Positions 7,300 through 18,625 of a stretch of DNA of 24,486 nt are shown here, piece by piece. The translations under genes and the position numbers were made by a program. This stretch comes from a virus. The DNA lies in the IMG/VR virus record IMGVR_UViG_3300025127_000265, positions 1-24,486 of that record. One strand, written 5' to 3'. Numbering within the stretch: position 1 is the stretch's first letter; the number at the start of each line of letters is the position of its first letter. Under the pieces are notes generated by a model. That model did no database searches. It worked only from the letters and a program-made list of their open reading frames with translations, and had not been told where the DNA came from.

Positions 7300-7881
7300 T
7301 TATTTGTTCCTTTTTATTGTAGTTTTATTTTCAGAAAACACTCCGAAAATTTCCGTTGGCAGTTCTTTACCTGCCTCAATACGCTCACGGACTAACGCTT
7401 TTAAAGTCATGGGTTCTACCTTCATCTTTTGTGTCGGTTGGAACCCTTGACCCTTTGCAAGTTCAGCATAATTTGCTGCCTTGTTATCTTCGTTACGACC
7501 AAAAGACACCGAGATCTCATTCTTAATAATATCTCCTAGTCCATTGTTACGAAGCCAGTTAAACGCCGCCTCTTTATTTGCTTCCGTTATGGTAGCTCGA
7601 TACGTCGTTGAAACTTTTAAGTGAGATCCATCATGCAGTTTTAATTCTGCAAGACCCATCTCAGACATCATGGTTGGTATAACCTCACCTGATATGTGAT
7701 CTCTTTTCTTTTTCATCATCTTTAAATCGTTTTCTATATCTGCAATACGGTCATCGCATAGCTCTAATCTTTCAACTTGATCTGCAAGAGACTGAATACC
7801 TTCAGTCTTCTTCATTGCATCTTGTTGATCTGCTTCAAAGTTTATTTCATCTTTAAATTTTATTTGTTGTTTAATCGCCAT
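7300..7881 (-). CDS. Conserved phage protein with N-terminal coiled coil
   Basis: The 193-aa protein has a charged helical N-terminal half with probable coiled coil at about residues 28-65 (LADQVERLELCDDRIADIEN). A compact domain follows with IPTMMSEMGLAELKLHDG and then beta-type segments (HLKVSTTYRATITEANKEAA) and FNWLRNNGLGDIIKNE. The C-terminal part has LKALVRERIEAGKELPTEIFG. This order (coiled coil, 'Met-Glu-Gly-Leu plus dG..lkv' module, then 'WL..nG...iiK') recurs from memory in unannotated phage replication-region proteins, but I cannot name a family or function. AAGGAG sits six bases before the ATG. The start overlaps the 3' end of the 125-aa gene by 11 bases. Co-expression with replication genes is likely. 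Confidence 0.75.
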   Translation of the reverse strand: MAIKQQIKFKDEINFEADQQDAMKKTEGIQSLADQVERLELCDDRIADIENDLKMMKKKRDHISGEVIPTMMSEMGLAELKLHDGSHLKVSTTYRATITEANKEAAFNWLRNNGLGDIIKNEISVSFGRNEDNKAANYAELAKGQGFQPTQKMKVEPMTLKALVRERIEAGKELPTEIFGVFSENKTTIKRNK

Positions 7882-8248
7882 CTATTTCTCCTTTCTCGTG
7901 TAAATTAATAGCTATGGGATAATAGGTTCTTTCTTGTTTATCCCATTTTAATAAATTATATTTACCATTTGTAACTTCAGATACCAAAGAACAAGTTATA
8001 CCTATTATTGCAGGGTCACCCGTACATAAAAGATAATCATCTTTATTAAAATTTTTTATTAAAGGTCTTAATCTATAAATTAATGGACCCGGAGAAAATA
8101 TAATTTGTGAATCTTCGGGCAATAAAAATTTAAATTTACCAAACTTAGAAGCACCCATAATGTTTATTTTAGGGTTGCCAACTTTAGTTCCAGGTATCTC
8201 CTGTATAACATAAACTATTCTTTCTGGCATACTTGACATATAATTCAT
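7871..8248 (-). CDS. Small conserved protein, first gene of leftward replication block
   Basis: The 125-aa protein contains PGTKVGNPKINIMGASKFGKF, then LLPEDSQIIFSPGPLIYRLRPLI and YLLCTGDPAIIGITCSLVS, suggesting an alternating beta/alpha fold. No known motif is recognised. It is the first gene on its strand, reading away from the divergent SNF2 gene. Three in-frame starts are possible: ATG at 8248, at 8239 (AGGA eight bases upstream) and at 8230 (MPERIVYV). The first two lie inside the perfect inverted repeat 8233-8265, so the annotated start is uncertain. If a promoter within the repeat drives this gene, the start at 8230 is more likely. Its position suggests early expression. Confidence 0.72.
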   Translation of the reverse strand: MNYMSSMPERIVYVIQEIPGTKVGNPKINIMGASKFGKFKFLLPEDSQIIFSPGPLIYRLRPLIKNFNKDDYLLCTGDPAIIGITCSLVSEVTNGKYNLLKWDKQERTYYPIAINLHEKGEIDGD

Positions 8249-8265
8249 CCTGGATTATATGTCAA
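8233..8265. promoter_or_regulatory. Divergent operator/promoter palindrome with TTGACA on both strands
   Basis: TTGACATATAAT (8233-8244) and ATTATATGTCAA (8254-8265) are perfect inverted repeats of 12 bp separated by 9 bases. Each arm begins with TTGACA on its own strand. A TATATG stands 17 bases further on in both directions, giving symmetric sigma70-like promoters that overlap completely. The element lies exactly between the leftward replication block and the only rightward gene. The plus-strand promoter would start transcription near 8268, leaving a leader of about 17 bases before the helicase. The arms could also be a repressor or activator binding site. Promoter activity is inference from motif and position. 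Confidence 0.65.
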
Positions 8266-8284
8266 TACTAGAAAGAAGAAAATT

Positions 8285-9715
8285 ATGAATTATAAATTTA
8301 AAACTAAACCATATGCACATCAATTGACTGCATTAAAAAAGTCATGGAATAAAGAAACCTTTGCCTATTTTATGGAGATGGGTACAGGTAAAACAAAAGT
8401 GTTGATAGACAATCTAGCTATGCTTTATGACAAAGGTAAAGTTGATGGAGCTTTAATTGTTGCACCCAAAGGTGTTATTAAAACTTGGTACGAGCAGGAG
8501 TTGCCAACACATCTACCAGATCATATAGAAAACGTAACCATATTATGGCAATCAAATATTACCAAAGGACAACAAGAAAAATTAGAAAGTTTATTTGAAA
8601 TAGAAACAGCATTACATATTTTGATTATGAACGTTGAAGCATTTAGTACAGAGAAAGGTATGAAGTTTGCATCTAAATTTTTAAACTCACATAAAGTATT
8701 AATGGCTATTGATGAGTCTACAACTATAAAAACTCCTTCTGCAAAAAGAACTAGAAATATTATTGACTTAGGAGTGCATGCTAAATACAGACGTATTATG
8801 ACAGGGTCACCTGTAACTAAAAATCCCTTAGATTTATTTACACAATGTTATTTTTTAGATCCTTTTCATCTAGACCATAGTTCTTATTATTCATTTAGAA
8901 ATAGATATGCCATAATGAAAACTATGCATGTAAGGGGCAGGTCAATACAAATAGTTCATAAGTTTCAAAATTTAGGAGAATTATCTGAAAGATTACAAAA
9001 TTTTTCTTACAGAGTTTTAAAAGAAGATTGTTTAGATTTACCACCAAAAAATTTTATGAAACGACATGTTTCCTTAACATCAGATCAAAAGAAAATTTAT
9101 CAACAAATGAAAAAGCAGGCACTAGCAGTATTAAATGGCAAGGTTACAACCACCATGACAGTATTAACTCAACTTATGAGATTACATCAAATAACTTGTG
9201 GTCATTTTAAAGCAGATGATGGTTCAACACAAGCTGTAGACAGTAACAGACTTAATGAGCTTATGGGTGTTTTGGCTGAAACTGAGGGTAAAGCCATAAT
9301 ATGGGCTAACTATCAATTAAGTGTAGGAGAAATCATACAGAGAATAATAAAAGAATACGGAGAGGATTCTTATGTGCACTACTATGGACTAACTTCACAA
9401 GAAGAGAGACAAGATCATATTCGTAAATTTCAAAACAATCCTAAATGTAGATTCTTGGTAGGCACACCACAAACAGGTGGATATGGTATTACACTAACAC
9501 AAGCTAATACTGTTATCTATTATTCTAATGGTTATGATCTTGAAAAAAGATTACAATCAGAAGACAGAGCACACAGAATAGGACAAAAGAAAACAGTAAC
9601 TTATGTTGACTTGATCGCTGAGGATACTGTTGATGAGAAGATTGTAAAGGCTTTAAGAAATAAAATAAATATTGCATCTGAAGTCATGGGTGAAGAATTA
9701 AAGCAATGGATCTAA
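8285..9715 (+). CDS. SNF2-family (SF2) helicase/ATPase
   Basis: This is the only plus-strand gene in the window. The 476-aa protein carries SF2/SNF2 motifs: Q-like KPYAHQLTAL, motif I MEMGTGKT (G33-T37), Ia LIVAPKGVIKTWYEQE, motif II LMAIDESTTIKTPSAKR (D143, E144), III RRIMTGSPVTKNPLDLF, IV AIIWANYQLS, V FLVGTPQTGGYGITLTQANT and VI EDRAHRIGQKKTV (R428, R431). Such enzymes translocate on double-stranded DNA, and in phages they are thought to act in replication, recombination or fork restart. At 476 aa it has little beyond the two RecA-like lobes. It diverges from the replication block across the palindrome at 8233-8265 and converges with the endolysin gene, stop codons overlapping by 4 bases. 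A weak purine-rich ribosome site precedes the ATG. Confidence 0.93.
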   Translation: MNYKFKTKPYAHQLTALKKSWNKETFAYFMEMGTGKTKVLIDNLAMLYDKGKVDGALIVAPKGVIKTWYEQELPTHLPDHIENVTILWQSNITKGQQEKLESLFEIETALHILIMNVEAFSTEKGMKFASKFLNSHKVLMAIDESTTIKTPSAKRTRNIIDLGVHAKYRRIMTGSPVTKNPLDLFTQCYFLDPFHLDHSSYYSFRNRYAIMKTMHVRGRSIQIVHKFQNLGELSERLQNFSYRVLKEDCLDLPPKNFMKRHVSLTSDQKKIYQQMKKQALAVLNGKVTTTMTVLTQLMRLHQITCGHFKADDGSTQAVDSNRLNELMGVLAETEGKAIIWANYQLSVGEIIQRIIKEYGEDSYVHYYGLTSQEERQDHIRKFQNNPKCRFLVGTPQTGGYGITLTQANTVIYYSNGYDLEKRLQSEDRAHRIGQKKTVTYVDLIAEDTVDEKIVKALRNKINIASEVMGEELKQWI

Positions 9716-16640: not shown

Positions 16641-18625
16641 TACAATACTTCCTCTAATCTTTTTGATGTTTGAAACATTCTTCGAGCGCCCTCTAAACCT
16701 TGCGATTCTTCGGATACGTTACCTCCATCTTCGAGGTTCTTCATCATGTTATACATAACTTCTGCGCCTTTGTCCACATCGCCATCTCCTGCGTTTCTAA
16801 CAGCTTCAGCTGTAAATACAAACTCATTCTTTGATAATCTTGCAGGCACATCGTCTGCTTTTTCCATTCTTCCTATTGGTACAAAACCACCTTCAGCTCT
16901 TAAATCCATTTCTTGTCCACCCATATCTAATAAAGGCATAGTCTTTTTAGCTACGGGTTCTACGTTTCCACCTTTTTGGAAACCCTCTTTGTATAATTTT
17001 TCGAATGTATCAAATTTTTCATCGTAAGCAGGATTATCTCTTGCCATAGAAGGATCTACTCCATACATTTTTTTAAAACCTTTGTATAAAGGGCTTTTAG
17101 CTAGTTTCTTCATTTCTTTTTCACTTATCACACCTCCAGCCTCTGCATAACCAATTCTACCACCATCAGCAGCAGATTCTGTAAATTGACTTCCTAGTAT
17201 TCTAGGAAATAAATCTGGATTAGGGTCTAATCTACTTGATGCATAATATGCGTCTATGTCAAATTTATCCTCATCTTGTTTTGGAGCTGTTAAACCAGCT
17301 AACGCTGACAGACCAGCTATACCTGCAAATACACCTTTGTCCGATAAATTATCTAAACTAAAACCTTTAGCTGCATCTTTTAAAAAAAATTTACCTAAAC
17401 CTTTTTCTTTTAAAAAAGGCACACCAAATTTAAGTGCAGCAAATCCTAAAGCTGCTTTACCAAACGGTGATTTAGCAACTTTTTTAATCGCTCTTGTTGC
17501 ACCTTTAATTCCTTTTTTTATACCTTTAACTATACCACCTAAAAACATTTCTTCCCTTACTAGGTCCATAATTCCACCATCCATAGCACTTACTCTCCCA
17601 CCATCTGCAAGACCTGTAAAATCAAATATGGAGCCACCTACTCTTGGAGAAAGACCACCTAAATTTCTAGCGATTGCATTTTGTGCTGTTTGGTCTGCTT
17701 TTTTACCTATAAAACAATATGATGGTGGGTTAGGTCCTAAACACGGATCACTTGGTCTACCTGCATCATCAGGTCTTGGTTTTGGTGGTGGATATAACTC
17801 TTCAAAACGATTTTGAGTCATTCCTTGTTCAACTAATTCATCCCTATTTCGTATGCCTTCTCTTATATCTGATAATAAGTTTGATTGATATTTTGTTAGA
17901 GGCTGTCCTTGTAAAGTTGTTCTTACTGAAGCTAGTTCTCTAATACTATCTAAATCTAAATCTGGAACAGCGCTCATTTCAGAAGATGTTCCTGATTTTC
18001 CTATTGGAGTTAAGTTTGAAAATTCTTTTATATTACTTAAATCTTTTCTAGCGGCTATGGCATCAGATATTTCATCATATATACTAGAAATTGGATAACT
18101 ACCAAAAAGACCATCTCTTGGTTCTTCTTCAAATCTACTTAAATTTGTTATTAAATCTCTATTTATAAAATCTAAAATACCTTGTTGTCTTCTTCTTGAT
18201 ATTTTATCTCTAAAAGATGTAGGCCTACTTCCTACTGGAGGTAATTGACCCCTAGATAAAAATTGTTGATCATATCTTCTTCTTTGTCTGTCCCTAGTAT
18301 CTCGAGATACTTTTGTTCTTGGTCCAGTTTTACTTGTTCTAACTGTTCCTGTTCTAGTTTGTGTTACTGACTCCTGCTCTCTTCTATCATCACCTCCACC
18401 AAAACCAGTAGAAGAAGTTTTTGAAGTAGAAGACCTATTAGAAGATCGACTTCTTTCAGCCCCTCTTTCTCTAGCCGATGAACTGCCAGTTCTTGATCCT
18501 CCACCAGTTCTATTAGATTGTGCTCTTGCACTTCTGTATCCTGGTCTTTTACCATTTCCTGGTTTGACCAACATACCGCCGTCTTGTAACATCTGTTTTG
18601 CTTGTTGTGCTCTAGTTATTGCCAT
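16640..18625 (-). CDS. 661-aa modular virion protein with repeated GG motifs and conserved C-terminal module
   Basis: The N-terminus has DGGMLVKPGNGKRPGYRSA, then a disordered Ser/Arg/Thr-rich basic region (about 30-145) that could bind DNA. A helical middle and a Pro/Cys loop (DPCLGPNPPSYC) follow. The second half alternates hydrophobic helices (AALGFAALKFGVPFL at about 391-405; GIAGLSALAGLTA at about 435-447) with short GG tags at 342-343 (LADGGRVS), 350-351, 488-489 (AADGGRIGYAEAGG), 552-553, 579-580 and 634-635. Residues 578-638 read EGGFVPIGRMEKADDVPARL and NEFVFTAEAVRNAGDGDVDK. I recall this module from many uncultured marine phage virion proteins. The gene starts 9 bases after the 59-aa gene without a clear SD. 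A DNA-injection or core-protein role is inference. Confidence 0.8.
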   Translation of the reverse strand: MAITRAQQAKQMLQDGGMLVKPGNGKRPGYRSARAQSNRTGGGSRTGSSSARERGAERSRSSNRSSTSKTSSTGFGGGDDRREQESVTQTRTGTVRTSKTGPRTKVSRDTRDRQRRRYDQQFLSRGQLPPVGSRPTSFRDKISRRRQQGILDFINRDLITNLSRFEEEPRDGLFGSYPISSIYDEISDAIAARKDLSNIKEFSNLTPIGKSGTSSEMSAVPDLDLDSIRELASVRTTLQGQPLTKYQSNLLSDIREGIRNRDELVEQGMTQNRFEELYPPPKPRPDDAGRPSDPCLGPNPPSYCFIGKKADQTAQNAIARNLGGLSPRVGGSIFDFTGLADGGRVSAMDGGIMDLVREEMFLGGIVKGIKKGIKGATRAIKKVAKSPFGKAALGFAALKFGVPFLKEKGLGKFFLKDAAKGFSLDNLSDKGVFAGIAGLSALAGLTAPKQDEDKFDIDAYYASSRLDPNPDLFPRILGSQFTESAADGGRIGYAEAGGVISEKEMKKLAKSPLYKGFKKMYGVDPSMARDNPAYDEKFDTFEKLYKEGFQKGGNVEPVAKKTMPLLDMGGQEMDLRAEGGFVPIGRMEKADDVPARLSKNEFVFTAEAVRNAGDGDVDKGAEVMYNMMKNLEDGGNVSEESQGLEGARRMFQTSKRLEEVL

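Follow-up and report, generated by a model that had tools for sequence, protein, structure and literature searches.

The divergent junction and its 33-bp element

We analysed a 24,486-base virus fragment, IMG/VR record IMGVR_UViG_3300025127_000265 (the window), which is identified by sequence as a piece of an HTVC023P-type pelagiphage relative. Its SNF2-family helicase is 61–63% identical to the helicases of HTVC027P and 023Pt_psg01 and 45% identical to that of HTVC023P. This helicase gene (8285–9715) is the only one in the window that does not read leftward. On its left, beyond a short palindromic element, lie Pam3 gp32-like, gp33-like and gp34-like genes and those for a primase, a UvrD-type helicase, a DUF3310 protein and a family-A DNA polymerase, the gp32-like gene being the first of this leftward replication block. 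The initial annotation had described the boundary as the sole divergent junction. This holds within the 24.5-kb fragment but not in complete relatives, which have several such junctions. The features at the junction are as follows.

7871–8230, minus strand: gene for the Pam3 gp32-like protein, 119 amino acids from 8230 (PF23992, 1.7e-29; phrog_5888)
8228–8230, minus strand: start codon of the leftward gene, its A (8230) being the predicted +1, the seventh base past the -10
8233–8265, no strand: 33-bp palindromic element, read as two fully overlapping opposite promoters (TTGAC-N-GTCAA conserved at homologous junctions, counts below)
8233–8238, plus strand: putative rightward -35, TTGACA (TTGAC invariant in 143 distinct elements, which were selected on TTGAC)
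8237–8242, minus strand: putative leftward -10, TATATG, spacer 17 (TATA 16–17 from the leftward TTGACA in both size classes)
8256–8261, plus strand: putative rightward -10, TATATG, spacer 17 (most distinct elements, irrespective of length, have a TATA box at this spacer)
8260–8265, minus strand: putative leftward -35, TTGACA (from sequence and conservation)
8267–8268, plus strand: predicted rightward transcription start, placed 6–7 bases past the -10
8270–8278, plus strand: AGAAAGAAG, the helicase gene's likely ribosome-binding site (most homologous junctions retain AGAAAG)
8285–9715, plus strand: gene for the SNF2-family helicase, 476 amino acids (Pfam PF00176, 6e-24; PF00271, 2.7e-15)

The element reads TTGACATATAATTCATCCTGGATTATATGTCAA. 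As first described, it is a perfect 33-bp palindrome whose arms, TTGACATATAAT (8233–8244) and ATTATATGTCAA (8254–8265), match at 12 of 12 positions around the 9-base spacer TCATCCTGG, and TTGACA-N17-TATATG is present on each strand (8233–8261 on the plus strand, 8265–8237 on the minus strand). Both strands have the sigma70-type arrangement of a TTGACA-like -35 and a TATAAT-like -10 separated by 16–18 bp. The T at -7 of sigma70-type promoters is absent at this helicase junction and present at the terminase junction described below. At the sequence level the two putative promoters overlap and diverge: they share DNA, point apart and have a gene on either side. The element is missing from the list of predicted sigma70 promoters because its -10, TATATG, has no T at the sixth position.

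The symmetry itself is a poor guide to function. The element is the window's sole inverted repeat with perfect arms of at least 10 bases and a gap of at most 20. An arm of at least 12 bases nevertheless arose somewhere in 5 of 60 dinucleotide-shuffled windows, about one in twelve, giving p ~0.08 per window for symmetry alone. As a bare palindrome the element is not far from chance, and the functional case rests on conservation; chance becomes a much less likely explanation once its location at a divergent junction and its terminal TTGACA motifs are considered. The genome scan for further copies of the arm that the initial annotation had proposed found the element once in the record, with no additional arm copies in the window at 0–1 mismatches.

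Conservation and spacing in homologous junctions

Helicases or the gp32-like protein served as seeds for five scans, which recovered some 400 loci; among these, 250 distinct junctions include 70 nt or more of sequence upstream of the helicase. TTGAC...GTCAA adjoins the helicase in 186 of them, as elements of 33 bp (62), 34 bp (7), 36 bp (1), 37 bp (113) and 38 bp (3), and never of 35 bp. In 9 further junctions the element stands at the divergence point, and an inserted gene or a non-coding stretch of about 150 nt separates it from the helicase. The remaining 55 junctions lie mostly on the HTVC027P side, where a rightward TTGACW-N17-TATATA (TTGACT in the clade) directly precedes the helicase and the right arm is missing. 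The element does not characterise the group as a whole, since the HTVC027P clade no longer has the leftward -35 and HTVC023P itself has no such element; DSL-LC04 lacks it too. A chance palindrome in AT-rich DNA, to which the shuffled windows might lend some colour, is already refuted by the recurrence of TTGAC-N-GTCAA with fixed internal spacing at 186 of 250 junctions and at displaced divergence points, and we give it virtually no credence.

How spacing behaves across length classes tells a promoter pair from an operator: an operator for a dimer preserves its half-sites and the spacing between them, whereas a promoter pair preserves the -35 to -10 spacing on each strand. The comparison covered 143 distinct elements of 33, 34, 36, 37 and 38 bp, which are linked by descent and recombination, so that distinct elements are not to be equated with independent events. 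The sixth base of the rightward -35 is A in 136 of the 143. The near TATA starts 6–7 bases from the start of TTGAC in elements of 33–34 bp and 9–11 bases from it in those of 36–38 bp. The far TATA starts at base 22–23 from the opposing TTGAC (spacer 16–17) in all length classes and on both strands. Hence, as length changes, the distance between the two TATAs varies and that from TTGACA to the far TATA stays at 16–17. TATA occurs at spacer 16 or 17 on both strands in 109 of the 143 elements, against a mean of 0.5 and a maximum of 3 in shuffled cores. A quickly built helicase tree requires no fewer than 21 changes of length class, a number that junction recombination could inflate, and the spacing rule has probably been obeyed repeatedly. 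The initial annotation's proposal of two opposed sigma70-type promoters on one stretch of DNA is thus supported by spacing conserved across relatives.

Its companion proposal, that a dimeric regulator reads the symmetry, fared differently. On this explanation the palindrome is an operator, and a dimeric phage or host protein bound to both arms closes both promoters. Perfect symmetry in the window and in L048/L052 is what such a site would look like, and operators that overlap promoters are common, that of pLS20 Rco being one example (PMC4207663). Half-sites conserved in symmetry and spacing are not what the relatives contain. In neither the 33-bp nor the 37-bp class do mirrored columns outside TTGAC and TATA pair more often than expected of independent columns, and perfect arms of at least 12 bases occur in just 6 of 50 33-bp elements and in 0 of 83 37-bp elements. 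The half-site spacing, from TTGAC to the near TATA, shifts by 4–5 bp between classes; arm geometry as a whole varies by up to 5 bp, and the promoter spacing of 16–17 bp is kept. None of the neighbouring proteins tested in the window was recognisable as a regulator, and no conserved operator was seen at the element in homologous junctions. The initial annotation had itself named loss of symmetry in relatives of the same gene order as telling against its proposal, and most of these relatives have lost the perfect arms. We consider an operator improbable. Since the spacing rule is kept and mirrored positions do not covary, the perfect 12-base arms are best seen as a by-product of two opposite promoters overlaid on one another. 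What is preserved in the relatives, judged from their sequences, is the interlocked divergent promoter layout, not mirror symmetry.

The two promoters are also to be distinguished from a bidirectional promoter of the Escherichia coli type, in which one -10 serves both strands and starts would lie ~18 bp apart. TATA is self-complementary, and one TATA (ACTATATA) may belong to both -10s in the HTVC027P clade. Published starts of such promoters are 7–25 bp apart (PMC10268837), whereas those predicted here are 38 bp apart for the 33-bp element and ~33 bp apart for the 37-bp element. Moreover, the Warman/Grainger type has a shared -10, and the phage elements keep two separate TATA boxes, each with its own TTGACA. 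A single shared -10 is accordingly most improbable at these junctions.

Contig ends raise a further explanation, a genome-end, packaging or recombination site. Among 80 distinct junctions with a contig end within 1.2 kb, 15 end 0–100 nt and 31 end 700–900 nt upstream of the helicase ATG. This clustering is real but diffuse, as the ends are scattered and do not share a single base position. For three published genomes the first ATG was simply chosen as the place to open the sequence, and in the near-complete contigs G001 and G005 the two ends match each other in sequence and lie elsewhere than the helicase junction, leaving such a site with only a very slender chance of being right.

Predicted start sites, leaders and the -10 base

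The interlocked promoter pair makes precise predictions for where transcripts begin. The initial annotation had offered either a leaderless transcript or a start at 8230 for the leftward gene. The two options are one and the same, since the seventh base past the leftward -10 (8242–8237) is 8230, the A of the ATG. The gene most likely starts there on a leaderless message, and its start has been moved to 8230. In gp32-type relatives the predicted leftward leader is 0–5 nt, placing the ATG at the predicted +1 to about +5; for 37-bp elements the script chose a TTG six bases earlier, and the ATG itself lies at about +3. In psg01-type relatives the leader is ~13 nt. An in-frame ATG upstream of the leftward start occurs in only 38 of 183 junctions and is not a shared feature.

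On the other side, the helicase message has a predicted leader of ~17 nt that contains AGAAAGAAG. Its AGAAAG is also kept where a co-directional gene has been inserted upstream of the helicase, and presumably pairs with CUUUCU at the 3' end of 16S rRNA. In L059, L364, L391, L396 and L399, a non-coding insert leaves ~150–165 nt between the element and the helicase ATG. This insert (...GGGTAAGGAGCGAATGACGATCTTCCTAGGCGTATC...TAATACGCC...) has inverted-repeat ends and looks like a structured leader RNA; Rfam gave no match on the window or on the loci with the insert.

The -10 of the window element has no -7T on either strand and would be weak in E. coli. Across helicase junctions the -10s are TATATG, TATATA, TATATC or TATATT. 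HTVC023P-type isolates infect SAR11, an alphaproteobacterium. Start-site data from four Alphaproteobacteria place more than 60% of sigma70 promoters in the class without -7T, for which dependence on CarD has been proposed; the usual 17-bp spacer and 6-bp distance to the start are retained (PMC8407463). Given an alphaproteobacterial host and a -7T that is commonly missing in this class, the weak-looking -10 is no serious objection. A -10 motif based on transcription start sites in SAR11 itself was not found in the literature searched. In many elements of 36–38 bp, TATAAT is better matched at spacer 18–19 than at 16–17, so the register is ambiguous there.

We consider it highly likely that the element is a pair of interlocked host-type sigma70 promoters firing in opposite directions, with an essentially leaderless leftward message. 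Each promoter's -35 would lie against or over the other's -10, and host RNA polymerase would bind in either orientation to give one transcript or the other. The rightward promoter would produce the helicase message, with its short leader and ribosome-binding site, and the leftward promoter would start at or within a few bases of the gp32-like AUG to give the replication-block message. Polymerase occupancy would be exclusive because both core promoters use the same 33–38 bp. We infer from sequence that RNA polymerase uses both strands, where exactly it starts, that translation is leaderless, that occupancy is exclusive in vivo, and whatever regulatory effect competition may have. In E. coli, bidirectional promoters show no competition at basal activity and compete once one direction is activated (PMC12825309). 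A switch between the replication block and the helicase is a possibility.

A second junction and known promoter arrangements

Near-complete relatives were searched for TTGAC-N23..28-GTCAA, which revealed a second conserved site, TTGACAATTTAAGGTAACTATCCTATAAAGTCAA and variants, between two divergent genes (loci L419–L426 and L437–L541). One of the flanking genes, whose product starts MGVPKRLTEM, is taken as that for the terminase small subunit, from this N terminus and its position. On either side, two bases separate the element from a start codon. The resulting 44-bp module, CAT-NN-TTGACA-N22-TGTCAA-NN-ATG, is present in 105 viral contigs, against 2 for a control with N21. TAnnnT occurs at spacer 17 on both strands in 42 of 47 strand-collapsed distinct elements, mostly as TAAATT, TATATT, TAAAAT or TATAAT. 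By these motifs the terminase junction has the same plan in a purer form, with near-consensus -10s on both strands, and both of its messages are predicted to start no more than one or two bases away from their AUGs. The relaxed pattern TTGAY/RTCAA with N23-24 occurs exactly once in 9 of 10 near-complete phage records; the reversed-pattern control matches one.

The cultured phage HTVC027P has a comparable arrangement: gp30 and gp31 are exactly 38 bp apart, with TTGATA-17-TATAAA and TTGATT-17-TAAATA between them. An RNA-seq study (PMC12753301) describes gp30 as highly expressed at 3 h and at 12–15 h after infection; these data show transcription of gp30, not its start.

Taken together, the two junctions permit a bolder proposal, tentative and on balance unlikely. 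HTVC023P-type pelagiphages would use, as a standard part, a regulator-free interlocked sigma70 module, leaderless both ways from start codons ~38 bp apart, with polymerase orientation as the switch. The base at -7 would separate replication (not T, perhaps CarD-dependent) from packaging (-7T).

Overlapping divergent promoters, bidirectional promoters with a shared -10 and leaderless mRNAs are each already known separately. The cI transcript from PRM of phage lambda is a leaderless phage mRNA. The phage elements resemble it in having an AUG at or beside the predicted +1, but the junctions here serve replication and packaging genes, have no repressor gene and, at the terminase junction, are predicted to be leaderless on both sides. 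In Pc/Pr of pLS20, too, two promoters of the sigma70/sigmaA type overlap in opposite orientations and RNA polymerase can occupy only one of them at a time, but that system also involves a dedicated regulator, Rco, with numerous operator motifs and DNA looping, and 461 bp separate Pc from the gene downstream of it (PMC4207663). The element here has no conserved regulator site, and one or both messages are predicted to be leaderless. PCR/PM of the EcoRV restriction-modification system are divergent core promoters with overlapping polymerase sites as well; they differ in being controlled by a C protein, whose transcript is not leaderless (PMC5333194). In the bidirectional promoters of E. coli and Salmonella, symmetry also leads to firing both ways with room for one polymerase, but these have one -10 and starts 7–25 bp apart, whereas the phage element has two full interlocked promoters with starts predicted 33–38 bp apart (PMC12825309, PMC10268837). 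The literature searched contains no description of an interlocked promoter pair with leaderless start codons that is conserved at two junctions. What appears to be new is this combination of interlocked promoters and predicted leaderless starts, seen at the two junctions in a dominant group of marine phages; it provides precise predicted start sites and a promoter module that can be recognised at both.

Bacterial counterparts of the module were also sought. A search of 84,980 bacterial genomes gave 49 matches to the outer pattern, and TATA-type -10s on the two strands accompany it only in L573, a Rhodobacteraceae MAG (REDSEA-S34_B6 scaffold52). This scaffold carries the phage's own terminase gene and junction and is probably a mis-binned pelagiphage contig.

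Two further sets of sites were observed in the phage records. G002, G003 and G004 (L420–L422) have a 35-bp site, TTGACAATGACAGCGATGAGTGTTTAAGTTGTCAA, beside a small gene. In HTVC027P (L409), TTGACA-N17-TAGGAT occurs at 17718, 19224 and 19774, and TTGACA-N17-TATAGG at 17395. These sites stand ahead of gp33, gp34, gp36 and gp38 and are likely a family of directional promoters.
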